Below the pieces are notes generated by a model that was given only the letters and a program-made list of their open reading frames with translations, was not told where the DNA came from and made no database searches. Positions 7,343-44,364 of a stretch of DNA of 64,000 bases are shown in pieces (the first letter of the stretch is position 1; the number at the start of each line of letters is the position of its first letter). Where the stretch lies: contig NZ_SODP01000001.1 of NCBI RefSeq assembly GCF_004365355.1, forward strand, positions 3,222,481 to 3,286,480, in the 5' to 3' direction. The stretch comes from Kribbella pratensis. Lineage in GTDB: Bacteria; Actinomycetota; Actinomycetes; Propionibacteriales; Kribbellaceae. The translations under genes were made by a program, and so were the position numbers.

Positions 7343-8329
7343 ATGTCGGGCGTGACAGTCCGAATCAGTGACATCGAGCAGGCAGCCGAGGTGCTGCGTG
7401 GCGGCGGTTTGGTCGCCCTCCCGACCGAGACCGTCTACGGTCTGGGAGCCAATGCCGAGGACCCCGTTGCCGTCGCACGTATCTTCTCGGTGAAGGGCCG
7501 TCCGCCCTCGCATCCGCTGATCGTCCATATCGGCGGCGCGGAGTCTCTCGAGGCTTGGGTTGAAGACGTACCTGCGCCCGCGCGCGAGCTGGCCGAACGA
7601 TTCTGGCCCGGGCCATTGACGCTGGTCCTGAGGCGTGGCCGAAGGGTGCCACTCGAAGCAACAGGTGGCTTGGAGACGGTGGCCATACGGGTGCCGAACC
7701 ACCCTGTCGCTCTAGCGCTGCTTTCGGCGTTCGGTGGTGGTATCGCCGCGCCTTCGGCGAACCGTTTCGGCTCAGTCAGCCCGACTACCGCGAACCACGT
7801 CAGGAGCGAACTCGGCGACGCTGTCGACTTCGTGCTCGACGGCGGACCCTGCACGGTTGGCGTTGAGTCGACAATCGTTGACGCCACGGGTGAGATCCCG
7901 AGCGTGCTGCGGCCCGGAGGGGCGACCCGAGAGGACCTCGAGGCGGTCCTCGGACGCCCACTCGCGGTGCACTCGACCAGCCAGGTTCGGGTGCCTGGCC
8001 AGCATCCATCGCATTACGCGCCGAAGGCGCGGGTCGTCCTAGTCGCTCCTGAGAAGGTCATTGCCGAGGCCGAGCTCGCGCAGGAGCTCGGTCACCAGGT
8101 GGGAGTCATGGTTCCGCCAACCTCGTCGAACACGGCGGTCAACGCTCACGTCGTCGTGGCAGTTCCAGGTTCGATGGCCGCCTACGCGCACGAACTCTAT
8201 GGCTTCTTGCGCGAATTCGATCAGCGAGGTTGCGATCTCGTCATCGCGTCCTTGCCTGTCGAGGAAGGGCTCGGACTCGCGATCGCCAATCGGCTCCGCC
8301 GCGCCGCGGGACCGCGTGCCTCAGCGTGA
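7343..8329 (+). CDS. L-threonylcarbamoyladenylate synthase, Sua5 type
   Basis: A 328-residue protein that makes threonylcarbamoyl-AMP from threonine, bicarbonate and ATP for the t6A modification of tRNA position 37. The YrdC/Sua5 domain covers about residues 8-200, with GGLVALPTETVYGLGANA at the start, the KGRPPSHPL nucleotide-binding motif and FWPGPLTLVLRR. The C-terminal Sua5 domain (about 215-328) follows a linker with VPGQHPSHYAPKA, the typical lid segment. This long form differs from the short TsaC/YrdC form. The frame opens at 7253, but ATG 7343 is preceded by GGGAATGAG and gives the family N-terminus. Actinobacteria usually have another TsaC/Sua5 near prmC, so this may be an additional copy; that is inference. 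Confidence 0.92.
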   Translation: MSGVTVRISDIEQAAEVLRGGGLVALPTETVYGLGANAEDPVAVARIFSVKGRPPSHPLIVHIGGAESLEAWVEDVPAPARELAERFWPGPLTLVLRRGRRVPLEATGGLETVAIRVPNHPVALALLSAFGGGIAAPSANRFGSVSPTTANHVRSELGDAVDFVLDGGPCTVGVESTIVDATGEIPSVLRPGGATREDLEAVLGRPLAVHSTSQVRVPGQHPSHYAPKARVVLVAPEKVIAEAELAQELGHQVGVMVPPTSSNTAVNAHVVVAVPGSMAAYAHELYGFLREFDQRGCDLVIASLPVEEGLGLAIANRLRRAAGPRASA

Positions 8330-9146: not shown

Positions 9147-9818
9147 ATGCCCAAGAAGATCGTTCGCGCCGGCCTCGCCGCGTCTGCTCTGGCCCTCGTC
9201 CTCGCGACGGCGGCCTGCGGCAGCAACGACGACAACTCCAGCGGTACTCCGGCCACCAGCTCCTCCTCGTCCGCTCCCGCAGACACTCCGAGCGCATCGT
9301 CGTCTGCATCCGCGGACAACATGTCCGATCTCGTCGGCCCCGGCTGCGCCGACTACGCCAAGGCCAACGCCACCGGCGCTGGTTCGATCGACGGCATGGC
9401 GGCTGCTCCGGTCGCGACCGCGGCTTCGGGCAACCCACTGCTGAAGACCCTGGTCGCAGCCGTCTCCGGCAAGCTCAACTCGAAGGTCGATCTCGTCTCG
9501 ACTCTCAACGGCGGCGAATTCACTGTCTTCGCCCCGGTCGACACGGCGTTCGCGAAGATCCCGGCCGCCACCGTCAACACACTGAAGACCAACGACGCTC
9601 TCCTGACCAAGATCCTGACCTATCACGTGGTCTCCGGCCAGCTCGACCCGGCCGCCGTGGTCGGCAAGCACGCCACGGTGGAGAAGCAGGACCTCACCGT
9701 GACCGGCTCGGGCGACAGCCTGAAGGTCAACGGCGCCAACGTCATCTGCGGCGGCGTGAAGACCGCAAACGCCACCGTGTACCTGATCGACTCCGTACTG
9801 ATGCCGCCGGCCGCCTGA
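9147..9818 (+). CDS. Fasciclin-domain lipoprotein, MPT83/MPT70-like
   Basis: A 223-residue lipoprotein. The signal peptide ends in the lipobox ATAAC with Cys24, followed by a Ser/Ala/Asp-rich linker to about residue 55. [19 protein letters not shown] and the fasciclin domain (about 85-221) follow, including [18 protein letters not shown] and [13 protein letters not shown]. These surface proteins are thought to mediate adhesion; in mycobacteria the MPT70/83 proteins are under SigK/RskA. Here the gene has a SigK-type promoter and sits beside a decayed sigK and a membrane molybdopterin oxidoreductase, the usual company of this family in Actinobacteria. Confidence 0.9.
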
Positions 9819-9842
9819 TCGAACGCACAGCCTCATGGACCT

Positions 9843-9880
9843 GGACCGGTGCCACCATCAGTTGCCGATGGCACCGGTCC
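9843..9880 (+). terminator. 12-bp hairpin after the fasciclin gene
   Basis: GGACCGGTGCCA (9843-9854) pairs perfectly with TGGCACCGGTCC (9869-9880) across a 14-base loop, 25 bases after the fasciclin stop. Confidence 0.7.
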
Positions 9881-9926
9881 GGTCGCCTCTCCTGGTAAGG
9901 CGATTCTCTCCGGCGGAGGACCGATC

Positions 9927-10110
9927 GTGACCGACCTCCCCCACTCCCCTGGCCTGGGGGACTCGCGGCCAGCGACCGACTGCAGAGCTCGACGAGCTGA
10001 TGAACCGCGTCGCGAACGGGGACACGGCGGCCTTCAGCTCGCTGTACGACGTGACCGCGCCAGGCGTCTTCGGTCTCCTGCGCAATCCGGCGCAGTCCGA
10101 GGAAGTGTTG
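9927..10110 (+). pseudogene. Decayed sigK (ECF sigma factor) 5' fragment
   Basis: From GTG 9927 the frame reads VTDLPHSPGLGDSRPA, then a frameshift near 9985 is needed to continue with AELDELMNRVANGDTAAFSS and LYDVTAPGVFGLL, which is the SigK region 2 start. Some residues usually found between GLL and NPAQSEE are missing. Homology stops at about 10110, where an oppositely oriented tatB-like fragment begins. So the gene has a frameshift, an internal deletion and no regions 2.2-4. Assignment to SigK rather than another ECF factor rests on this motif and on the fasciclin/molybdopterin context. Confidence 0.65.
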
Positions 10111-13990: not shown

Positions 13991-14245
13991 GTGACGGCAG
14001 GGTGGGCACGGCAGATCGCGGACGGAGCCACCGATCTGCTCGCCTGCGCACCGGATGCCACCCGACTGCTGCTCGCCGCGGCCGGGCCGCGGTTCTACCC
14101 GTGCAGCCGCGTGGACGTGATCGTCATCGCACCCACCGGCCACGTGACCAACCTGCACCGCAACGCCGACCTCGCCTACCGCAGCATCACCGCACGGGCC
14201 GACCGCACCGTCGGAACTGCCAAGAAAGGTCAGTTGGTGTCATAA
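13991..14245 (+). pseudogene. 3' fragment of a secreted alpha/beta hydrolase
   Basis: Reads ATDLLACAPDAT, RFYPCSRVDVIVIAPTGHVTN and LHRNADLAYRSITARADRTV, matching the last 80 residues of the intact hydrolase at 32485. It keeps the catalytic-acid Asp and His region but lacks the nucleophile half. The stop overlaps the stop of the opposite HxlR gene by 16 bp, as in the two other copies. Confidence 0.8.
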
Positions 14246-14631
14246 CGGAGGCGCGACTCCGCGACATACTGCCGGTGCTTCTCGGCCCAGTCGATCAGTG
14301 CGCGGACCTGGCTGGAGAGAGTGGCTCCGACTGGCGTGAGGGTGTAGTCGACGCGAGGCGGCGAGGTCGGTGTGACGGTACGGTCGACCAGGCCGTCTCG
14401 CTCCAGGCTCCGCAACGTCAGGGTCAGCATGCGCTGAGAGATGCCGTCAACGGATCGCTGGAGCTCGGAGTACCGCTTCGACCCCGAGCCCAGTAGGTCC
14501 AGCACCAGCACACTCCACTTGTCTCCGGCCCGGTCCAGGATGTCGCGCAGCTGGCAGGTCGGGTGGCTGCCCCGGATCGGCTCGCGCACATTGGTGTTCG
14601 GTAGGCGGGTCAAACTGCCTTCTTCCGTCAT
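14230..14631 (-). CDS. HxlR-family transcriptional regulator
   Basis: A 133-residue winged-helix regulator. ATG 14631 gives the family N-terminus; CQLRDILDRAGDKWSVLVL (Cys at about residue 23) and RYSELQRSVDGISQRMLTLT are the HxlR helix-turn-helix, with wing TVTPTSPPRVDYTLTPVG. The N-terminal Cys in this position senses electrophiles or oxidants in some family members. It is divergent from the DUF5519/quinone oxidoreductase pair and an inverted repeat lies between them, so these are probably its targets. Parts of its 3' end are duplicated at 32378 and 38265. Confidence 0.92.
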   Translation of the reverse strand: MTEEGSLTRLPNTNVREPIRGSHPTCQLRDILDRAGDKWSVLVLDLLGSGSKRYSELQRSVDGISQRMLTLTLRSLERDGLVDRTVTPTSPPRVDYTLTPVGATLSSQVRALIDWAEKHRQYVAESRLRYDTN

Positions 14632-27105: not shown

Positions 27106-27149
27106 TAGACAGTCTCCTGTCTTTCGATTACAGTAGACAGTTGCCTGTC
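27106..27149. promoter_or_regulatory. Paired TAGACAG operators upstream of the MarR-like gene
   Basis: TAGACAGTCTCCTGTC (27106-27121) and TAGACAGTTGCCTGTC (27134-27149), centres 28 bp apart, 22 bases before the GTG of the MarR-like gene. The same pair with the same spacing recurs at 35482, 35878 and 38696. Confidence 0.8.
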
Positions 27150-27170
27150 CATCTTAGAAGGAAGTTGACC

Positions 27171-27620
27171 GTGAACGCACCGACACTCCCCTTCGGCACC
27201 GCGATGGCGCTCGCTGAGCGCAACCTGCGTGGTCCGCTGATCCAGATCCTGACCGAGGAGGACCTTGAGCCCGGCGCGTGGTTCACGCTCAACACCCTCG
27301 GCCTGCGAGGGGCTACCCCGACGACGACCGTCAAAGAGCTGCTCTCCACCAGTGGGTACGACCACGCGAGCAGCGATGATCTGCTCAGGCGCCTCGCCGC
27401 CGTCGGACTGATCGAGGACGGCGATGAGCTACTCCGCCTCACCCCCGCAGGAGCCGAGCGCTACGAGTCCGTACGCGAGCGGATCGGCGCGGCGACCGGT
27501 CGGGTGTTCAGCCTCTTCGACGCGGCTCGGGTCGAGACAGCCCGCGCCCTTTTGCAACAGCTCGCCGAGACCGACCCGGCGACGATCGCCGAGATCGCAT
27601 TCGGCAAGGCACCAGCGTGA
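27171..27620 (+). CDS. MarR-like winged-helix regulator
   Basis: A 149-residue regulator starting at GTG 27171 (AAGGAAG upstream). LPFGTAMALAERNLRGPLIQ opens a MarR-like domain; KELLSTSGYDHASSDDLLRR LAAVGLIEDGDELLRLTPAG is the recognition helix and wing, and the C-terminal helix FSLFDAARVETARALLQQLA mediates dimerisation. It is the only gene directly behind a TAGACAGG operator pair that encodes a DNA-binding protein, so it is the best candidate for the factor that recognises this motif at four loci; that link is inference. Confidence 0.85.
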   Translation: MNAPTLPFGTAMALAERNLRGPLIQILTEEDLEPGAWFTLNTLGLRGATPTTTVKELLSTSGYDHASSDDLLRRLAAVGLIEDGDELLRLTPAGAERYESVRERIGAATGRVFSLFDAARVETARALLQQLAETDPATIAEIAFGKAPA

Positions 27621-32229: not shown

Positions 32230-32345
32230 GCGGGCCGGGCGGTCCGCGGTGGGTTCAGACTGTGATGGTCGATCCAGACGGAGCTGGCGGCGGCGATGTC
32301 CTCGGGGCGGTCCTCGAGGGCGTGATGGCCGGCCTGCCCGAAGGC
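32230..32345 (-). pseudogene. 3' remnant of a haloalkane dehalogenase-like gene
   Basis: Leftward translation gives FGQAGHHALEDRPEDIAAAS, matching LAGHHTPEDQPEAIAASLVN at the end of the intact dehalogenase at 34580. Only this 3' end survives; no nucleophile region is present. Confidence 0.6.
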
Positions 32346-32377
32346 GTTGGTCTTCATGCGGCCGATGAGCTGGTCGT

Positions 32378-32500
32378 GTCGACTACACCCTCACGTCGGT
32401 CGGAGCGACTCTCTCCAGCCAGGTCCGCGCATTGATCGGCTGGGCAGAGAAGCGCCGCCAGTACGTCGCGGGATCGCGCGTCCGCTACCAGGCGAACTGA
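32378..32500 (+). pseudogene. 3' fragment of an HxlR regulator (second copy)
   Basis: VDYTLTSVGATLSSQVRALI GWAEKRRQYVAGSRVRYQAN and a stop match the last 40 residues of the intact HxlR gene at 14230 at 33 positions. The helix-turn-helix part is absent. Its stop overlaps the convergent hydrolase stop by 16 bp, exactly as at 14230. Confidence 0.85.
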
Positions 32501-33558
32501 GGTTTCTTGCCGGTTCCGACGGTGTGGTCGGCCCACGCGGTGATGCTGCGGTAGGCGACATCGGCGTTGCGGTGGAGGTTGATCACGTGGCCGGCCTGCG
32601 GGATGACGACCGCGTCGACTCGACTCCGGGGATAGAAGTGCTGCTCGGCCGCGGCGAGCGTTGCCGCCGACGAGCAATCGGTGGCGTCTGGGGCACAAGC
32701 GAGCAGATCGGCGGCTCCGTTCGCGATGAGGATCGGCAGGGTGAGCTCCTCGCTCACGCCCGGCGCATTGGCGTCGCCGATGCTGAAGATCTCGCCGAGG
32801 GTGTTGGTCTCCTTCGTCGCGATGTCCAGCGCCACGACACGCGGGTCCGCGTCGGCCAGGTAGTAGAAGAAGTCGGGGCGTTGCCTGTCCTGCGCCGTCA
32901 CATAGCCGCTGTCGCCGGGCGGCACCTCCGCGGCCAGCCGCGGAACCTCCGAGACCGGCTGACCTAGCTGGGCCAGCAGCCTTTGAGTGCTCGGCGAGAT
33001 CTTGTGCGCGCTGCCGGTCAGAATGAGCGCGTCCACGTCTCGGTAGCGCGAGGCCTCCAGCTTGGCGATCTCCGAGCCGTACGAGTGGCCGACGAGCACC
33101 ACCTTGGTGAAGGTCCGTCCGGAGATCGCGCCGGAACGCAGCGCGGCGACGATCTGATGGATGGTGTAGGCGTTGGACCCCAAGGTGACGTCGGTGCTAG
33201 CGGGATGAGAACTGCGCGCGACGCCGATGCGGTCGAGATTGAAGGTCGCGTACCCGGCCCGGTTCGCCCAGCGCACATAGGAATACTGAGCCGACTTGAA
33301 CGGGAAATCCCAATACAGATGGCTGTAGTTCAAGCCGTGGATCAGCACCTGCACGGTGGCGCCGGGCCGATGGTTGGGCGTGCAGAGCTGGCCCCAGATC
33401 TGGTACTGCGCCGGCTGGTCCGGCGCGATCGACACGGGCACTGTGACGTCTCGGCAGTGCGTCGCGGAATCGGACGCGGCGGCCGTCGCCAGGCCTGCGG
33501 CCGGTAGGCCGATCAGCAGGCTCGCAACGGCGACGGCGCGCAGGATGCGGTGAAGCAT
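32485..33558 (-). CDS. Secreted alpha/beta hydrolase
   Basis: A 357-residue exported hydrolase starting at ATG 33558. The signal peptide (MLHRILRAVAVASLLIGLPA to about residue 30) is followed by the hydrolase fold: oxyanion loop VLIHGLNYSH, nucleophile Ser159 in VVLVGHSYGSEIAK, acidic residue in NGAADLLACAPDATDC and catalytic His in IPQAGHVINLH. It resembles secreted esterase/lipase-like proteins of actinomycetes. It is the third gene of a leftward unit behind a dehalogenase and a quinone oxidoreductase. Fragments of its 3' end occur at 13991 and 38295. Confidence 0.87.
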   Translation of the reverse strand: MLHRILRAVAVASLLIGLPAAGLATAAASDSATHCRDVTVPVSIAPDQPAQYQIWGQLCTPNHRPGATVQVLIHGLNYSHLYWDFPFKSAQYSYVRWANRAGYATFNLDRIGVARSSHPASTDVTLGSNAYTIHQIVAALRSGAISGRTFTKVVLVGHSYGSEIAKLEASRYRDVDALILTGSAHKISPSTQRLLAQLGQPVSEVPRLAAEVPPGDSGYVTAQDRQRPDFFYYLADADPRVVALDIATKETNTLGEIFSIGDANAPGVSEELTLPILIANGAADLLACAPDATDCSSAATLAAAEQHFYPRSRVDAVVIPQAGHVINLHRNADVAYRSITAWADHTVGTGKKPQFAW

Positions 33559-33593: not shown

Positions 33594-34574
33594 TCACGGT
33601 CGAAGGACCGTCTTTCCGACGGTTGCGCGCGATTGCAGGGCAGTGTGTGCGGCGGCGGCGTCCGCAAGAGGGAAGCGCTGCCCGATGACCGGAATGAGTT
33701 GTTTGCTGTTGACCGCTTCCAGGGCGCTCAGCTCCAGCGGTCGGGTGCCGCCCGGGCGCTGAAGGATCCTGGCGCCGATGGCGGACGCGGCACTGATGCC
33801 CCGACCGAACAGATCACCGGCCGACAGTTCGGTCAGCGAGCCTGACGACGAACCGAACATGATCAGCCGTCCGCCGACACCGAGCAGCTCCAAGGCCGCC
33901 CGACCGACCAGGCCGCCGACACCGTCGAGAACCAGCGTCACAGGCCTGCCCGCCAACGCGTCGCGCACGGCATCGGGCCAGCCGGCTTGGCTGTAGTCGA
34001 TGGCGTGGTGGGCGCCGGTGTGGGCGGCCAGCGTGACCTTGGCGGGGCCACCGGCTACGCCGACGACCGTCGCGCCAACCGCACGCGCCGCCTGGATCAG
34101 GAGTGTTCCGATGCCGCCGGCGGCCGCCGTGATGAGGACGACGTCATCGGCAGTCGGCACCGCAAGCTCGAGGATGGCCATCGTGGTACGGCCGGTGCCG
34201 ATCATCGCCGCCGCGGAATCTGCGTCGAGATCATCGGGGATGACGTGCACCGTCGCCGACGGGGCCAACGCGAGCTCGGCGTACCCGCCGCTGATCAGGC
34301 CGAGATCGGCGACGACGCGTTGCCCGAGGAGGCCCTGGTCGGCGTCGGCACCGATCTCGTCGACGACTCCAGCGACCTCGCGCCCGGGCGTCATCGGCAG
34401 GCTGGGAGCGACCCGCGGGCCTGCACTGCCTTGGCGAATGATGGTGTCCAGCAAGTGCACGCCGGCCGACTCGACTCTGATCCGCGCCTCGCCGCCCGTG
34501 GGGTGCGGGTCGGGCACCTCCTCCAGTAGGAGTTTGTCGGGGCCACCGAACGCGTACTGCCTGATCGCGAGCAT
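33594..34574 (-). CDS. Zinc-free quinone oxidoreductase (MDR family)
   Basis: A 326-residue NADPH-dependent reductase starting at ATG 34574, five bases from the dehalogenase stop. MLAIRQYAFGGPDKLLLEEV, MTPGREVAGVVDEIGADAD and the nucleotide motif ITAAAGGIGTLLIQAARAVG (about 145-165) are diagnostic; no zinc cysteines. Homologues reduce quinones and enals. Middle gene of the dehalogenase-reductase-hydrolase unit. Confidence 0.9.
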   Translation of the reverse strand: MLAIRQYAFGGPDKLLLEEVPDPHPTGGEARIRVESAGVHLLDTIIRQGSAGPRVAPSLPMTPGREVAGVVDEIGADADQGLLGQRVVADLGLISGGYAELALAPSATVHVIPDDLDADSAAAMIGTGRTTMAILELAVPTADDVVLITAAAGGIGTLLIQAARAVGATVVGVAGGPAKVTLAAHTGAHHAIDYSQAGWPDAVRDALAGRPVTLVLDGVGGLVGRAALELLGVGGRLIMFGSSSGSLTELSAGDLFGRGISAASAIGARILQRPGGTRPLELSALEAVNSKQLIPVIGQRFPLADAAAAHTALQSRATVGKTVLRP

Positions 34575-34579
34575 CGCCG

Positions 34580-35455
34580 TCAGCCCTCGCCGTCGAAGCG
34601 GAAATTGTGCTTGTCCAGCCAGTTGACGAGCGAGGCGGCGATGGCCTCGGGCTGGTCCTCGGGGGTGTGATGTCCGGCCAGGCCGTGTGTCTCGATCTCG
34701 AGAGCGGACACATTGGTCGCGCACCAGTCGACGATCTCCGGACCCATCATCGTGCCCGGGCCGGGTTCGAAGGTGAGCAGCAGCTTGGGCACGTCCGCGC
34801 TGGCGGCCAGCCACGCGTCGTACGCGACGATCCTCGCCACAACGTCGGCCGGCTGCCCGTCCAACGGCATCGCGCGCGGCCATTGCAGCAACGGCGTACG
34901 ACTCTCCCTGGTCGGGTACGGCCGCCGGTAGGTGTCCAACTCCTCGCCACTCAACCCGCGGGCGGTGGTCCTCGGCAACGCTTCCTCGATGAACGCGTTC
35001 TGGTCCAGGATCATCGCCTCGCCCACCCCCGGCGTCCGAATCGCCTCGAACAGAGGACGCGCCCCGGCAGGGAACTCCTCCCAGGACATCGGCTTCACGA
35101 TCGTTTCGGTGAAGGCGATGCCCTTGATCCGGCCGGGGTGGCGGGCCGCCCAGTCGAAGGCGAGAGCGCCGCCCCAGTCGTGGCCGATCAGCACGATCCG
35201 GTCGAGACCGAGTGCGTCGAACCATGCGTCGAGATAGCGGGCGTGGTCGTCGAACGTGTACGCAATGTCCGGCTTACCGGACTCCCCCATACCGATCAGG
35301 TCCGGCGCCAGACACCGGCCCGACTCGCCGACGATCGGCAAGATGTGGCGCCACAGGTACGACGTCGTCGGGTTGCCGTGGAGGAAGACGATCGGCGTCC
35401 CGGCGCCGATCTCCCGGTAGAACATGGTGGAGTGCAGAACAGGTGCGCTGGGCAT
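34580..35455 (-). CDS. Haloalkane dehalogenase-like alpha/beta hydrolase
   Basis: A 291-residue enzyme. The frame opens at 35602, but ATG 35455 (MPSAPVLHSTMFYREIG) has GAGAGG six bases upstream. [15 protein letters not shown] (halide-binding Asn28), nucleophile Asp93 with Trp94 in VLIGHDWGGALAF, and catalytic His about 262 in GLAGHHTPEDQP match DhaA-type (subfamily II) enzymes, which split carbon-halogen bonds to alcohols; activity on esters or epoxides is not excluded. A TAGACAGG operator pair lies 27-70 bases upstream of the start. Its promoter and first third are duplicated at 38.5-38.7 kb. Confidence 0.9.
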   Translation of the reverse strand: MPSAPVLHSTMFYREIGAGTPIVFLHGNPTTSYLWRHILPIVGESGRCLAPDLIGMGESGKPDIAYTFDDHARYLDAWFDALGLDRIVLIGHDWGGALAFDWAARHPGRIKGIAFTETIVKPMSWEEFPAGARPLFEAIRTPGVGEAMILDQNAFIEEALPRTTARGLSGEELDTYRRPYPTRESRTPLLQWPRAMPLDGQPADVVARIVAYDAWLAASADVPKLLLTFEPGPGTMMGPEIVDWCATNVSALEIETHGLAGHHTPEDQPEAIAASLVNWLDKHNFRFDGEG

Positions 35456-35481
35456 GACAGGCCTCTCGGACGATGACATAA

Positions 35482-35525
35482 TAGACAGGTGCCTGACCAA
35501 ACTAGTAACTAGACAGGCAGCTGTC
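35482..35525. promoter_or_regulatory. Paired TAGACAGG operators upstream of the dehalogenase unit
   Basis: TAGACAGGTGCCTGAC (35482-35497) and TAGACAGGCAGCTGTC (35510-35525), centres 28 bp apart. Confidence 0.8.
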
Positions 35526-35547
35526 AATACGGGTTCACTGCGAAGCG

Positions 35548-35690
35548 ATGCGGTTCGCTCTCCTCCTGGCGACGCGCCGGATCGCCGACCTGCACCCAGC
35601 AAACGCCAAGACCGACGCGCGCGACGCTTACGCGATCGCCGAAGCCGCCCGGTCGATGCCCCACGCGCTGCGCCGCGTCAGACAACTGGT
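35548..35690 (+). pseudogene. IS110-family transposase fragment
   Basis: RRIADLHPANAKTDARDAYA then IAEAARSMPHALRRVR is the DEDD-domain segment (KTDARDA) of IS110 transposases. Both ends are missing. The bases to 35875 show nothing further that I can assign. Confidence 0.75.
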
Positions 35691-35877
35691 TTGTTCTTGG
35701 TCGGGGCGACGTCGCAGACCGCTCCCTCGTAGCTCGTCGGAGTTGCTGTCATCGATGACTAACTGACGGGTCATCGACCCCAAGGCCGCTGCACAGCTGC
35801 AGGCGCTCCCGGCCTACCGCGACGCGATGCTGCGGCAGCAGAGCAACTGCTCTTCTTACCGAGAGACAAGACATCTT

Positions 35878-35919
35878 GACAGGCGACTGTCTATTTCTTA
35901 ATTTAGTCAGGCACTTGTC
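35878..35919. promoter_or_regulatory. Third TAGACAGG-type operator pair
   Basis: GACAGGCGACTGTC (35878-35891) and GTCAGGCACTTGTC (35906-35919), centres again 28 bp apart, 24 bases before the ATG of the secreted protein at 35944. This pair is less perfect than the others. Confidence 0.7.
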
Positions 35920-35943
35920 TAGTTGGTTCAATTTTGGAGCGCA

Positions 35944-36402
35944 ATGAAATCATCGACGAAACTCGTAGTTCTGGCCTGGATCCTCTCGGCCTTCCTCAGC
36001 GTCACGACCTTGAGCACCACTGCGGAAGCGGCGGTGTCCGGCTTCAGCATCCGCAACTCCCACAGCGGTAGATGCTTGAACGCGCCAGGAACCAACATGT
36101 ACCTAACCGATGCGCCGTGCAACAAGGACATCGCGAGTCAACGCTGGATCAATGTTGGCAGCATGTTGGAGAACAGGGCGCAGCCGTTTGCCGACTGGTG
36201 CGTGGCGGGTCAGGGTCACGAGGAGCGCGCTTTGCTCAAAGTTTGCAACAGCCCTGAAACCATCTGGTCGGTCAACTCTTTCCGTGACGGCGCCAGGGTC
36301 AAGATCTGGAACTCCACCTGCGGGTACCTCAAGGTGATGCCAACGGTGGGATGCGGTCGGGCCACCATCGCTACCTCCGACTACTGGTATATCGACTACT
36401 GA
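35944..36402 (+). CDS. Small secreted protein, ricin-type beta-trefoil-like
   Basis: A 152-residue exported protein. GGAGCGCA precedes ATG 35944. Signal peptide MKSSTKLVVLAWILSAFLSV to about residue 30 (TAEAA). The mature part FSIRNSHSGRCLNAPGTNMY and SQRWINVG repeats a CxL...Q-W pattern resembling one or more beta-trefoil (RICIN) lobes, with six cysteines. It may bind carbohydrate. It lies behind a TAGACAGG operator pair, so it should belong to the same small regulon. Confidence 0.75.
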   Translation: MKSSTKLVVLAWILSAFLSVTTLSTTAEAAVSGFSIRNSHSGRCLNAPGTNMYLTDAPCNKDIASQRWINVGSMLENRAQPFADWCVAGQGHEERALLKVCNSPETIWSVNSFRDGARVKIWNSTCGYLKVMPTVGCGRATIATSDYWYIDY

Positions 36403-36536: not shown

Positions 36537-37034
36537 ATGAGCAGGACAACCTCCGGCAAGCGGTCGCGGCTCTCCCTTCTGCTCCGCCTGCTGCACCGCG
36601 AATACACCGCCGGTATCGAGGCCTCGCTGATCGAAGCAGGTTTCGATGACATCCGATCCGGAGATGCGAAGGTGTTCCCCTTCGTTCCACCGGAGGGACT
36701 GCCGATTCGCGAGCTGGCTATCCGGGCCGGCGTCCGCAAGCAGACCATGGCGCAGTCAGTCACGCACCTCGAACGGGCCGGCTATCTTGACCGGCGTCCG
36801 AATCCACTCGACGGACGTTCCCAGTTGGTCGTACTCACCGAAAAGGGCAGGACCGTGCAGCCGATCGCCGCGACTCTGGGCGACAGCATCGAGACCCGCT
36901 GGGCTGAGCTGATTGGCGCGGACGAGTTCGACAAACTACACAGTCTCCTGCATGACCTCCTCGACCGGATCAGCGAAACAGACTCCGCCGCCACGGTTCG
37001 CCTGACATCCATCAACGACGTCCCGCTGGACTGA
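36537..37034 (+). CDS. MarR-family transcriptional regulator
   Basis: A 165-residue MarR protein starting at ATG 36537 (MSRTTSGKRSRLSLLLRLLH). HTH: LPIRELAIRAGVRKQTMAQS VTHLERAGYL; wing: RRPNPLDGRSQLVVLTEKG. The C-terminal helix ends with SETDSAATVRLTSINDVPLD. No TAGACAGG pair is in its own upstream region, so it is less likely than the gene at 27171 to be the regulator of that motif, although it is nearer to three of the four sites. Confidence 0.88.
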   Translation: MSRTTSGKRSRLSLLLRLLHREYTAGIEASLIEAGFDDIRSGDAKVFPFVPPEGLPIRELAIRAGVRKQTMAQSVTHLERAGYLDRRPNPLDGRSQLVVLTEKGRTVQPIAATLGDSIETRWAELIGADEFDKLHSLLHDLLDRISETDSAATVRLTSINDVPLD

Positions 37035-37640
37035 ACCACGCGACCTGGTCGCCGTCGATGTCGAGCACGATCACGGCAAATTGCGTGACGGGACAGAAGC
37101 ATCGCGGAGGGCCGCCTTTGACGGTGCAATGCTCAACGCCCAAAGACGGGACGGACCTGCGGGAGGCGTCGCCGATGATCAGCTGAGCGATCTTGTCACC
37201 CCCGCGGATGAGGGCCGGCCACCCGGGCCTTGCGCGCCATCGGCCGACATAGCCCCCACCTCCGGCGCAACGAATTTCTCCGTCACCACGTGCTGCACTC
37301 GCGGGTCGGCCTCGAAGCGGGGGCGCCTGGCCCTGTGTTCGCGGGTGCGCTGGGCCACCTGCCGAATCGCCGCCGGGTGCGGTCGATCGGCTCCGAGATC
37401 TCGGCGTACGCATAGCCGAACAGCGGGCGCAGCACGAACACCGCCCTCACCAACGGGCTGAGCGTTCCAGCGTGACCGGCATCGCCATCGATACCGCCTC
37501 GGCACGCTCAACCGGGTCGGCGGGCGTGATGACGGGCCGATCACTCCTCCCGCCGCCGACTGATCGTCGTACGGCCGGCCGGTGCGGCATTCACCGCGAT
37601 CCGGACCATAGACGCGCGAGGGTTCTCGATCCCGTCGCGC
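37035..37640 (-). pseudogene. Decayed ECF41 (SigJ-like) sigma factor
   Basis: Leftward, parts of one protein are spread over three frames: NPRASMVRIAVNAAPAGRTT ISRRREE (region 2-3 linker), AVFVLRPLFGYAYAEISEPI (region 4), then PAAIRQVAQRTREHRARRPR and VVTEKFVAPEV, then GGDKIAQLIIGDASRR and QFAVIVLDIDGDQVAWF from the SnoaL-like C-terminal domain. The order matches the intact ECF41 factor at 43411. At least three frameshifts and some stops kill it. Confidence 0.75.
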
Positions 37641-38136: not shown

Positions 38137-38261
38137 GATCCTTCTTTCGCTGGGTTTTCGGCGCTTGTCGTAGCTGCCGTGGGCCGGCGCGGCGGCTCAA
38201 GGCAGGTCGTTCGCGAGCTCGTTGGACTGTGGTCGGTGCACCCTGATCGACTCATGGGGTA

Positions 38262-38310
38262 GCGCCGCCAGTACGTCGCGGGTTCAGGCGTCCGCTATGA
38301 CCCGAGCTGA
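38262..38310 (+). pseudogene. 3' end of an HxlR regulator (third copy)
   Basis: Only [15 protein letters not shown] and a stop at 38308-38310 remain. The stop overlaps the convergent chimeric hydrolase stop (38295) by 16 bp as in the other two copies. Confidence 0.7.
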
Positions 38311-38671
38311 GGTTTCTTGCCGGCTTCGACGGTGTGGTCGGCCCATGCGGTGATGCAGGGGTAGGCGGCATCGGCGTTGCGGTGGAGGTTGGTCACGTGG
38401 CCGGCGTGCGGGATGAGGACAGCGTCGACTCGACTCCGGGGATAGAAGTGCTGCTCGGCCGCGGCGAGCGTTGCCGCCCACGAGCAATCGGGCTTGCCGG
38501 ACTCCCACATGCCGATCAGGTCCGCGGCCGGACACCGGCCGAAGGCACCGATGATCGGCAGGATGTGGCGCCAAAGGTATGACGACGTGGGGTTGCCAAG
38601 CAGAAGACGATCGGTGTCCCTGCGCCGATCTCTCGGCAGGACATGGTGGATTGCAGAACGGATGTCGGCAT
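38295..38671 (-). pseudogene. Chimeric gene: dehalogenase 5' end fused to secreted hydrolase 3' end
   Basis: From ATG 38671 the frame begins [23 protein letters not shown], as in the dehalogenase at 34580. One base is missing near HGNPT, and the following frame reads [20 protein letters not shown] through [11 protein letters not shown], then switches without a gap to [20 protein letters not shown] and [17 protein letters not shown], the last 65 residues of the hydrolase at 32485. So two paralogues were joined and the product is frameshifted. Its upstream region carries the TAGACAGG pair of the dehalogenase. Confidence 0.85.
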
Positions 38672-38695
38672 GGTGAGCCTCTCGAGCCAACGATA

Positions 38696-38739
38696 TAGAC
38701 AGGCGCCTGATCAAAGTATCAACTAGACAGGCGCCTGTC
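38696..38739. promoter_or_regulatory. Fourth TAGACAGG operator pair
   Basis: TAGACAGGCGCCTGAT (38696-38711) and TAGACAGGCGCCTGTC (38724-38739), centres 28 bp apart; the second holds a perfect 14-bp palindrome GACAGGCGCCTGTC. It precedes the chimeric pseudogene. Confidence 0.8.
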
Positions 38740-38940
38740 AATATAACCTGGGCCGCGAACCAGCAAGGCCACCAGCCGAAGTTCTCCCGATGGATGCCGC
38801 GACGCTGGGCGCCCGCACTGCGGGCGGCCCCAGAGACAACGTCAGCCCACGCCGAGGTGGAGGGCTGTGTCCAGAGCGACTACTTGCCGTGCGGGCGCCC
38901 GGCCGAGGGACTGGACGCCGATACCCGCCCGAGAGTCGCC

Positions 38941-40023
38941 CTACCGTGACGGAAACACTGGCGCAGTCGAGTTGAGCTCCGAATTCTGACGCGCTCGCCC
39001 CGCCGGAATCGATTTGCGAAGACCCACGGCTCCCGGTGGTGATCCTTCAGCGGTCAGCTGGTATCCGGCGCGCTGGTAAAGGGCCTGGGGGCCGGTGCTG
39101 CGCGCGCCGGTGAACAACTGGATTGCGGTCGCATCACCGGGAGCGTGTGCTTCAGCGTGTGCGAGCAGTCGTTGCCCGAGGCCACGATGTCGTTGGTCAG
39201 GAGCGACCATCAGCCGGCCGATCAGCCAGTCTTCGCCCCCGCGTTTCCCGCGGACGGAGCCGACCAGCCGCCCGGCCGAGCGAACCACCCAAACGGACCA
39301 CTCGTGGAGTGCTGCCTCGACCTCGACGGCAGATTCGTGCAGGGCGGGGAGGTCCAGGGTCTGGTTTGCGACCGCCTCGTCGACCCAGCAAGCACGCTGT
39401 AGAACGACCAGTTCTGCGACGTCCGCCGAGGTGGCCGGCACGATCTGCTCATCCTCACTGCGCAGCGGTCGCATGACTTCGGCAGCCCGGGCAAGTTGCC
39501 CGAGAGCCGATCGGGCGTATTTCGTGCGGGAGTCTTTGCTGATCACTGTGCCGTCCGGCAGGTCGTCGGCAATGCGCAGGTAGATGTCGCCGCCGATCGA
39601 CAGCATCCGCAGTGACGTTGCCACCCCGCGGGCCATCTGCACGCCACGGGATCCGGCCGAGGTGTTGCCGTAGCCGATGAACAGGCACGGCTTCCACGCC
39701 CACTCACGGCTCAGATAGTCGAAGGCGTTCTTCAGGGTGGCAGGCATTGCGAAGTTGTACTCACCCGTGACGAAGACCAGCCCATCGGCGGCCTGGACCC
39801 GGCGGCTCCATTCCCGTGTGTGCTCGTAATGGTAGATCCCGGTCGAAGGGTGCTCAGGCTCGTCCAGAAACGGCAGACCGACCTTCGCCAGGTCGGCCAC
39901 CTCGATCGTGAGGTCCAGCTCGGTCGTGGTCGGCGCGGTGACTTGCAAGAACCAGTCCGCTACGGCGGGGCCTAGCCGACCAGGGCGGGTGCTGGCGATG
40001 ACCACCAGAATTTTCTTTGACAT
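38941..40023 (-). CDS. NADPH-dependent FMN reductase fused to a GNAT acetyltransferase
   Basis: A 360-residue two-domain protein. Residues 1-185 are a flavodoxin-like FMN reductase: KKILVVIASTRPGRLGPAVA (FMN phosphate loop) and VFVTGEYNFAMPATLKNAFD (family GEYN motif). Residues about 193-345 are a GNAT N-acetyltransferase: LIGRLMVAPDQRHRGLGQRL with the acetyl-CoA loop QRHRGLG, and GPQALYQRAGYQL. Both domains look complete and no stop or frameshift separates them. It is divergent from the MarR gene at 40076. ATG 40023 starts directly on the reductase; ATG 40053 would add ten residues (MSKKRVTVLD). Reduction and acetylation of one substrate is possible, but unproven. Confidence 0.82.
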   Translation of the reverse strand: MSKKILVVIASTRPGRLGPAVADWFLQVTAPTTTELDLTIEVADLAKVGLPFLDEPEHPSTGIYHYEHTREWSRRVQAADGLVFVTGEYNFAMPATLKNAFDYLSREWAWKPCLFIGYGNTSAGSRGVQMARGVATSLRMLSIGGDIYLRIADDLPDGTVISKDSRTKYARSALGQLARAAEVMRPLRSEDEQIVPATSADVAELVVLQRACWVDEAVANQTLDLPALHESAVEVEAALHEWSVWVVRSAGRLVGSVRGKRGGEDWLIGRLMVAPDQRHRGLGQRLLAHAEAHAPGDATAIQLFTGARSTGPQALYQRAGYQLTAEGSPPGAVGLRKSIPAGRARQNSELNSTAPVFPSR

Positions 40024-40063
40024 GTCCAAGACTGTAACTCTCTTCTTTGACATGTCAAAGAAG
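40015..40063. promoter_or_regulatory. MarR operator palindromes overlapping the start codon
   Basis: A perfect 22-bp palindrome at 40042-40063 has arms CTTCTTTGACA and TGTCAAAGAAG. A partial copy, CTTTGACATGTCCAAG (40015-40030), has its centre 30 bp away. Both ATG codons (40053 and 40023) of the leftward fusion gene lie inside these sites. The divergent MarR gene starts 12 bases to the right. Confidence 0.75.
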
Positions 40064-40075
40064 TAGGATGGCGAT

Positions 40076-40525
40076 GTGTCCGACACCAGATGGTTGACCG
40101 CCGATGAGGAACGCGCCTGGCGCGCAGTGCGGCGCCTGCTCACAGCACTGCCGTCCCGGCTGGCGCGAGACCTGAACCTGCTCGGGCTTTCTAGCGCGGA
40201 CTATGAAGTACTGAGCACGTTGTCAGAGAAGCCCGGCCGTCGTTGGGGGCTCAGGGACTTCGCGGTGAAGATGCAATGGTCCCGCAGCCGCCTTTCGCAT
40301 CACGTGAGCCGAATGGAGGCGCGCGGGCTGATCGAGCGCGAGCCTGATCCAGACGATGCGCGCGGCTCCATCTATCACCTGACCGATGCCGGTTTCGCGC
40401 TCCTCGAGCAGGTCGCACCACAGCACCTCGAGTCGGTCCGCCGCCGATTCGTCGATCACTTGTCGACTGAAGAACTCGCCCTGCTGGAGCGAGTGGCCAC
40501 CCGGATCGCCGATCTGCCCGACTGA
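40076..40525 (+). CDS. MarR-family transcriptional regulator
   Basis: A 149-residue regulator of the same subtype as that at 6613 (MSDTRWLTADEERAWRAVRR). HTH: WGLRDFAVKMQWSRSRLSHH; wing: EREPDPDDARGSIYHLTDAG. AGGATGG is the Shine-Dalgarno before GTG 40076. Together with the operators it should repress the divergent FMN reductase-GNAT gene and itself. Confidence 0.92.
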   Translation: MSDTRWLTADEERAWRAVRRLLTALPSRLARDLNLLGLSSADYEVLSTLSEKPGRRWGLRDFAVKMQWSRSRLSHHVSRMEARGLIEREPDPDDARGSIYHLTDAGFALLEQVAPQHLESVRRRFVDHLSTEELALLERVATRIADLPD

Positions 40526-43410: not shown

Positions 43411-44364
43411 TCACCTGACGTGAGTCAGCTTGTCAGGGTTCGACACCAGGTAGATTTCGCTGATTTGCTCGCCGTCCGGGGTCAGGTCCAACGAAAGAGC
43501 CGCAAATGGCATGTCACCGCGGAAGAACACCGCTGACGGTACGCCGTTTACCTCTCGGTGCCGGATGTCCAGTCCACGGGGGAAGCGGCCGACCCCGGCG
43601 GCCAGGGCTCGAGCGACCTTGGTCTGACCGAGGATCGGGTACTGGCCTGCGGCCGGTGCCTTGCCGCCACCGTCGGCCACCAGGATCACATCGGGTGCCA
43701 GCAGTTCCAGCAGCGCCTGCACATCACCGCCGGCTGCCGCGGCGAGGAACCGCTCGGTAGCCTGCTGTCTCAGCCGCGGTTCCACCGCATAGCGCGGACG
43801 ACGGGCCTGGACCTGCTCGCGAGCTCGATGCGCCAACTGACGTATTGAGGCGTGACTGCGACCGAGGATCTCGGCAGTCTCGTGATGGGCATAGCCGAAC
43901 ACCTCATGCAGAACGAAGACAGCACGCTCCAGCGGTGTCAGCGACTCCAGCACCACCAGCATCGCCATCGACACCGACTCGTTCCGCAGCGCGGCGCCGA
44001 CGGCATCGTCCGCCTCTGCGCCCGAGCCACCGGTCGCCGCATCGACAAGGGGCTCCGGCAGCCACGGTCCGACGTACGTCTCCCGCCGGCGGCGAATTGC
44101 TACTTGGCGGGCCAGGGCGCCATTGACCGCGATCCGGGCCAGGTAGGCACGGGGGTGGGCGATCTCCGCACCGGCCACCGACTGGTTACGCGCGTCCCAG
44201 GCGAGCCAGGCTTCCTGCAGCACGTCCTCGGTGTCCGAGACGGTTCCCAGGATGCTGTAGACGATGGAAAAGAGCAGTTCCCGATACTCGACGAACGTCG
44301 CCATCGCCGTTGTCGACAGATCGTCCGCCGAAGAGTCGTCGCCGCCCGACGTCTGATCCTGCAT
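43411..44364 (-). CDS. ECF41-family sigma factor (SigJ-like) with SnoaL domain
   Basis: A 317-residue sigma factor; AAGGAGCTCAGG precedes the ATG. Region 2: TFVEYRELLFSIVYSILGTV and DTEDVLQEAWLAW; region 4: ERAVFVLHEVFGYAHHETAE ILGRSHASIRQLAHRAR. The C-terminal SnoaL-like domain (about 205-317) has the group's motifs DGGGKAPAA and NPDKL. In ECF41 factors this domain replaces an anti-sigma factor and both contacts core polymerase and inhibits. Neighbours are NAD(P)-binding oxidoreductases, the usual ECF41 partners. A TGTCACA box is 60 bases upstream, hinting at autoregulation. Confidence 0.92.
   Translation of the reverse strand: MQDQTSGGDDSSADDLSTTAMATFVEYRELLFSIVYSILGTVSDTEDVLQEAWLAWDARNQSVAGAEIAHPRAYLARIAVNGALARQVAIRRRRETYVGPWLPEPLVDAATGGSGAEADDAVGAALRNESVSMAMLVVLESLTPLERAVFVLHEVFGYAHHETAEILGRSHASIRQLAHRAREQVQARRPRYAVEPRLRQQATERFLAAAAGGDVQALLELLAPDVILVADGGGKAPAAGQYPILGQTKVARALAAGVGRFPRGLDIRHREVNGVPSAVFFRGDMPFAALSLDLTPDGEQISEIYLVSNPDKLTHVR

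Follow-up and report, generated by a model that had tools for sequence, protein, structure and literature searches.

A short segment (38231-38745) of the stretch of Kribbella pratensis DNA analysed here (64,000 nucleotides, referred to as the window) is a chimeric pseudogene. It is probably what remains of a duplicate of a cassette that consists of a MarR repressor gene, a twin operator and the genes of a dehalogenase, an oxidoreductase and a hydrolase. After this second copy had arisen, one internal deletion at a short microhomology would have removed its middle, thereby joining ~66 dehalogenase codons to the last ~64 hydrolase codons, and the remainder would then have decayed, with its native frame broken. 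The lower divergence of the half that holds the hydrolase and HxlR sequences is best accounted for by conversion from the intact copy at a later time, or by a recombination history of greater complexity. Because the two halves are unequally diverged, we present the deletion as the most likely mechanism and not as a settled one.

Structure of the relic

The following features were assigned to the relic:

38231..38310, + strand, HxlR-type regulator gene, 3'-end remnant that converges on the hydrolase tail with a slight overlap
38295..38491, - strand, hydrolase-derived part, last ~64 codons and stop codon, about 92% identical to the intact hydrolase
38488..38491, junction, CCGA on the sense strand (overlap of the blastn matches)
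38488..38671, - strand, dehalogenase-derived part, about codons 1-66 (blastn, tblastn)
38671..38745, - strand, promoter with twin operator, up to the homologous ATG at 38671 (-35 and -10 by inspection)
38698-38711 and 38726-38739, - strand, the two sites of the twin operator (motif search)
38741-38736, - strand, -35 box TTGACA, with a -10-like TACTTT 17 bp further (by inspection)

The window was compared with itself by blastn (E cut-off 1e-3). On the hydrolase side, 38261-38491 matched 32451-32681 (231 bp, 91.8% identity, E 1e-92), a stretch made up of the hydrolase 3' end and the tail of the HxlR gene. On the dehalogenase side, 38488-38743 matched 35268-35529 (262 columns with 47 mismatches and 6 gap positions, 79.8% identity, E 4e-61), which comprises the promoter, the twin operator and ~66 codons. 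The two matches, each to a different intact parent, overlap at 38488-38491, and the junction between the parents is consequently sharp. An earlier note had described this segment as a fusion of a dehalogenase promoter, operator pair and 5' end with a hydrolase 3' end; the pairwise alignment bears out both parents, their orientation and their coordinates, places the junction at 38488-38491, and the operator pair is indeed present at 38698-38739. Beyond what that note described, the hydrolase side runs past the stop codon into the HxlR 3' tail. Compared with the intact copy, the dehalogenase-derived part carries a 3-bp and a 1-bp gap, and 35 of the 42 bases of the twin-operator stretch are kept.

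The sense sequence at the junction, CCGA, is also found in the intact hydrolase and in the dehalogenases of four of the five cassettes found in other genomes (L062, L064, L065 and L128, the exception being L063); the intact dehalogenase of the window reads CGGA at this position, unlike CCGA. Judged from the homologues, the junction likely lies at a 4-bp microhomology. In the coordinates of the intact copy, the missing middle of the relic measures 2,586 bp (~2.59 kb). When 38200-38760 was used as query against the own genome, six places matched: the relic itself, three related places in the window and two places elsewhere that resemble the dehalogenase part more distantly and coincide with full dehalogenase homologues. 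None of these places besides the relic matches both halves, and tblastn found no trace of a MarR or oxidoreductase gene belonging to the relic.

The homologous dehalogenase ATG of the relic lies at 38671. Read from there, the sequence changes frame around codon 24 and reaches a stop after 51 codons (38516-38671), short of the junction, because one base is missing near 38600 relative to the intact copy. In tblastn the dehalogenase matched in two different frames, with 38671-38588 corresponding to residues 1-29 and 38597-38478 to residues 27-66. The earlier note was therefore wrong in having the start codon and 55 N-terminal residues follow the dehalogenase, though right in calling the segment a pseudogene. 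A longer frame of 148 residues (38741-38295) starts at a TTG whose first base is that of TTGACA, the sequence interpreted as the -35 box; initially this longer frame does not coincide with that of the dehalogenase. A single frame is shared by just ~40 dehalogenase residues (27-66) and ~64 hydrolase residues, and this post-frameshift frame is open across the junction. The relic promoter may still bind the MarR repressor, though it would drive no full protein.

The intact cassette

The parents of the relic and their neighbours in the window are:

32485..33558, - strand, intact alpha/beta hydrolase, parent of the relic 3' half (domain search)
33597..34574, - strand, quinone-oxidoreductase-like / zinc-type dehydrogenase, second cassette gene (domain search)
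34580..35455, - strand, intact haloalkane dehalogenase, parent of the relic 5' half (NF002938, 424.9 bits, cut-off 241)
35482..35527, - strand, twin operator of the intact dehalogenase (motif search)
35566..35685, + strand, fragment of an IS110-type transposase between the intact dehalogenase and a lectin-like gene (PF01548, 6e-9, 36.3 bits, cut-off 29)
36540..37034, + strand, MarR-family regulator of the cassette (PF12802, 36.0 bits, cut-off 27; PF01047, 31.0 bits, cut-off 24.6)

The dehalogenase aligns over residues 5-282 of 291 with AncHLD5 (6y9g), its best solved relative. The HGNP and HDWG motifs, the Glu and the His are aligned; the conserved positions Asn, Asp, Trp, Glu and His have catalytic roles in this family. 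By inspection of its N terminus, which resembles a signal peptide, the hydrolase looks like a secreted protein. The regulator exceeds the Pfam cut-offs for MarR proteins, and its gene lies about 1 kb from the operator. A search of plasmids with the hydrolase returned 11 records, all below 60% identity.

Further observations were made in the neighbourhood of the relic. One open frame (38941-40026) combines an FMN-reductase domain with a GNAT acetyltransferase domain and is divergent from a MarR-like gene at 40076, with a perfect 22-bp inverted repeat (40042-40063) between the two. Two stretches of ~93 bp, 37410-37501 and 43889-43981, are 75% identical to each other; the open frames tested around 37410-37501 gave no Pfam match.

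The cassette in other genomes

Relatives were searched with the parent genes as queries, and the fusion itself was searched in the own genome. Among genome contigs 38 dehalogenase loci were found, several of which end early at contig ends. Four of the 38 combine a MarR homologue (64% identity or more) and an adjacent oxidoreductase gene with a twin operator before the dehalogenase, namely L062 in Microbispora corallina, L063 and L064 in Actinomadura and L065 in Nonomuraea. A rescan of all 38 loci for twin sites (spacings 12-17, up to three mismatches) returned the same four only. L083 has a 46% MarR homologue without a twin site, and L084 a single twin match at four mismatches, far from the dehalogenase.

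In L062 the genes stand in the order dehalogenase-oxidoreductase-hydrolase on one strand, and the MarR gene lies ~1.8 kb from the operator with other open frames between. The hydrolase was matched at E ≤ 1e-60 in 10 of 297 genomes of the Microbispora family, which are an even draw from a larger group; its gene context was inspected in two of these ten, L062 and L128. The latter, from the same family as L062, is a second hydrolase-bearing cassette with the order dehalogenase-oxidoreductase-hydrolase on one strand, and its twin operator before the dehalogenase has a spacing one base shorter. Both parents thus occur in the same order and orientation in two independent genomes, and a single internal deletion in such a cassette suffices to produce the fusion. 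The closest relatives of the cassette lie outside the genus, which suggests that it was probably acquired horizontally. Short matches (about 25-115 bp) were seen in 13 of 57 relatives, with at most seven candidates scored per genome.

Some individual loci deserve mention. In L048 (genome G027, 9221-10083) a dehalogenase homologue appears as two overlapping pieces (73% and 67% identity), perhaps a frameshifted copy. In L047 (genome G019) a single operator-like site with one mismatch (8115-8128) stands ~83 bp before a 72%-identical dehalogenase, with no second site seen beside it. A lone, exact GACAGN4CTGTC lies where the Microbispora MarR gene starts (3283-3296 of L062), which would fit autoregulation. 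Among the literature titles listed, none describes the dehalogenase cassette or the twin operator, although this is no proof that these are unpublished.

Copies of the hydrolase/HxlR junction

Further debris of the same kind was found in the window:

14015..14236, + strand, third relic, hydrolase 3' end (residues 278-355, 68% amino acid identity)
14230..14631, - strand, intact HxlR-type regulator, convergent with the third relic (PF01638, 2.6e-27)
32253..32373, - strand, degenerate dehalogenase 3'-end fragment that adjoins an HxlR tail (blastn, tblastn)
32374..32500, + strand, HxlR 3'-end remnant located where the intact hydrolase ends (79% amino acid identity to HxlR residues 91-133)

The convergent hydrolase/HxlR junction is present three times within 25 kb: as an intact hydrolase with an HxlR tail (32374-33558), as a hydrolase tail with an intact HxlR gene (14015-14631) and, in the relic, with both tails. 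In the blastn self-comparison the third occurrence, which the earlier note did not contain, spans 14015-14356. We infer that the hydrolase-HxlR pair was copied and that different parts were then lost from each copy. In the L062 and L128 loci the hydrolase has no HxlR match as a neighbour, and hence the HxlR tail is no part of the cassette elsewhere. The earlier note had also mentioned fragments at 32230. This is borne out in part by 32289-32340, which is 84.6% identical to the dehalogenase 3' end at 34634-34685 (blastn), but over its full alignable length the fragment reaches only 54-59% identity to four dehalogenase 3' ends.

Divergence of the two halves

In the trees of either half the relic groups with the intact copy as its sister (FastTree support 0.951 for the dehalogenase half and 0.921 for the hydrolase half). 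In the dehalogenase half the branches measure 0.081 for the intact copy and 0.213 for the relic, in the hydrolase half 0.014 and 0.104. The two copies differ at 31 of 181 positions in the dehalogenase half and at 16 of 197 in the hydrolase half (Fisher P 0.012); with flanks, the numbers are 47 of 256 and 19 of 231 (P 0.0013). With the distance from the intact copy to L062 as the scale, divergence is 3.0 times (1.5-6.3) greater in the dehalogenase half, and the hydrolase half accordingly looks younger. Equal divergence of the halves, as predicted by the internal deletion of a duplicated cassette, was thus not observed (P 0.012).

Among all differences between the two copies, synonymous ones number 15 of 31 in the dehalogenase half, which does not fit neutrality (expected fraction 0.26, P 0.007); the hydrolase half, with 3 of 16, does fit it (P 0.78). 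A direct test between the halves gave P 0.06 when synonymous changes were compared and P 0.22 when third positions were. Among the changes that could be assigned to the branch of the relic, 1 of 11 is synonymous in the dehalogenase half and none of five in the hydrolase half, which fits decay. The former count disfavours a long functional life of the relic dehalogenase, though most silent changes, and many at third positions, were not assignable.

Origin of the fusion

The order of the halves favours the deletion reading: they stand in the cassette's own order. So do the sharp junction between two parents, the sister relation of relic and intact copy in both halves, the frameshift with its early stop, the lack of any other place in the own genome that matches both halves, and CCGA at the junction in the hydrolase and in four of five cassette dehalogenases. 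Several points speak against it. One duplication followed by one deletion predicts no unequal divergence, no trace of a MarR or oxidoreductase gene of the relic's own remains (the gap between MarR gene and operator being ~1.8 kb in L062 and ~1 kb in the window), the window dehalogenase reads CGGA at the junction, and no HxlR gene stands beside the hydrolase in L062 and L128. The unequal divergence goes against the simplest story, and for this reason a contribution of conversion, or a history with more steps, is still considered. The earlier note had invoked gene conversion or unequal recombination inside a small gene set; for the junction neither is required, as a single deletion suffices, but the divergence does leave room for later conversion.

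Alternatively, an older, diverged dehalogenase copy with its operator could have been joined by ectopic recombination to a recently copied hydrolase-HxlR tail, so that the halves never belonged to one cassette. We consider this unlikely, although the unequal divergence, the excess of synonymous differences in the dehalogenase half only (15/31, P 0.007, against 3/16, P 0.78) and the threefold presence of the hydrolase-HxlR tail within 25 kb would all be explained by it. Two independent events would have had to hit exactly the order and orientation of the cassette, and in its dehalogenase half, too, the relic groups with the intact copy as sister. Moreover, only 1 of the 11 changes assignable to the relic's own branch is synonymous, and the direct tests between the halves gave P 0.06 and P 0.22.

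That the fused or the 51-codon open frame is a new gene, expressed and selected, is very improbable, even though the twin-operator stretch keeps 35 of 42 bases and the post-frameshift frame is open through the junction. The catalytic residues of the dehalogenase, namely the nucleophile Asp, the Glu and the His, lie beyond the ~66 codons retained. A functional fusion protein was rejected on account of the frameshift and of a start codon within the -35 box.

It is still harder to believe that gene conversion made the junction directly, with the end of the intact hydrolase copied over a portion of another dehalogenase gene. Such a tract would account for the less diverged 3' half, but conversion needs homology. 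The two intact genes share the alpha/beta hydrolase Pfam models, but as they gave no nucleotide match to each other (blastn, E 1e-3), direct conversion was rejected.

An assembly artefact is the least credible explanation of all, because both halves carry private differences from the intact copy (19 of 231 positions; 47 mismatches in 262 columns), and the piece lies inside a 3.46-Mb contig of this 8.4-Mb genome of six contigs. The internal deletion of a second cassette copy is retained as the probable origin of the relic.

Twin operators and the MarR subfamily

The twin operator consists of two GACAGN4CTGTC sites whose starts are 27-31 bp apart. Searched at one fixed spacing with up to two mismatches, the own genome contains four twin sites (27108, 35484, 35878 and 38698), all of them in the window and within 12 kb. 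Besides those of the relic and the intact dehalogenase these are:

27106..27151, + strand, twin operator before gene 27171-27620 (motif search)
35876..35921, + strand, twin operator before the lectin-like gene 35944-36402 (motif search)

Gene 27171-27620 gave weak SCO6745-family / HTH_67 matches and the lectin-like gene lectin matches, in both cases under the curated cut-offs. No homologue of the lectin-like gene was found at E ≤ 1e-8 in the 57 relatives, and tblastn found no MarR homologue beside 27171-27620 in the window.

At the fixed spacing, one of the 37 other genomes of the genus contains a twin site, located before a homologue (81% identity) of the 27171 gene, and a MarR homologue of 43% identity flanks this site on the opposite side. 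Two further relatives (L130 and L131) have the same arrangement at spacings 16 and 17, and were for this reason missed in the fixed-spacing scan. In L129-L131 the MarR homologue is divergent from the 27171-type gene across the same kind of operator. The pattern read backwards, used as a control, had no match in all 38 genomes of the genus. Single sites alone are no better than controls: one count gave 7 forward and 2 reverse sites, all nine in the window, against 4 and 6 for the reversed control, and a second count gave 11 sites, five of them in the window, against 8. What stands out is the twin arrangement alone.

Outside the genus, the genomes of L062-L065 contain exactly one twin site each at the fixed spacing. 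A MarR search of the 297 Microbispora-family genomes yielded 13 loci, four of them (L135, L137, L139 and L140) in genomes already counted. A twin site stands beside the MarR gene in 11 of the 13, between that gene and a dehalogenase-oxidoreductase pair (n = 7) or a homologue of the 27171 gene of 30-50% identity (n = 4). The twin site of L141 appears only at four mismatches; L137 is L062's own MarR gene, with the operator outside the short locus, and L142 is without a twin site. A control with swapped halves gave no match in 173,736 bp over 22 loci. By its distribution in these genomes, the twin operator is tied to this MarR subfamily across genera, and the earlier suggestion that an operator travels with the gene agrees with this conserved association. 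One 3.4-kb locus (L146, genome G572) contains a 57%-identical dehalogenase together with a perfect twin operator and homologues of both the MarR gene and the 27171 gene; this co-occurrence links the two types of twin-operator target.

From this association the MarR protein 36540-37034 is the putative reader of the twin operators. Whether its regulon is enlarging by operator copying is rather doubtful. Four promoters in 12 kb, against one copy in each of four other cassette genomes, would then include those of the lectin-like gene and of a dead gene, and the latter copy might act as a decoy that binds the repressor or might drive a short peptide.

Comparison with known systems

The relic is useful as a marker, as it indicates that parts of the dehalogenase cassette were present more than once. 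It also led to a cross-genus module, in which a MarR subfamily is combined with twin GACAGN4CTGTC sites, the gene behind them being either a small SCO6745-like one or the first of a haloalkane dehalogenase operon. MarR-family repressors encoded beside their target operon are a known general kind. Here too, the MarR gene adjoins a palindromic operator, and this operator overlaps the -35 region predicted for the target operon. The system differs in its twin operators, four copies of which occur in this genome.

The parent gene 34580-35455 belongs with the haloalkane dehalogenases (NF002938, 424.9 bits; DhaA-like PDB structures). The relic, however, keeps only about the first 66 codons and is hence not a dehalogenase.

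Duplicated (non-processed) bacterial pseudogenes fused by internal deletion are likewise a known general kind. The relic resembles them in being a decayed copy near its intact parent, with a frameshift, a probable short-repeat deletion and the gene order kept. It differs from them in that its halves are unequally diverged and that a recognisable twin operator remains. In kind, it is an ordinary pseudogene, a well-understood form of genome debris.
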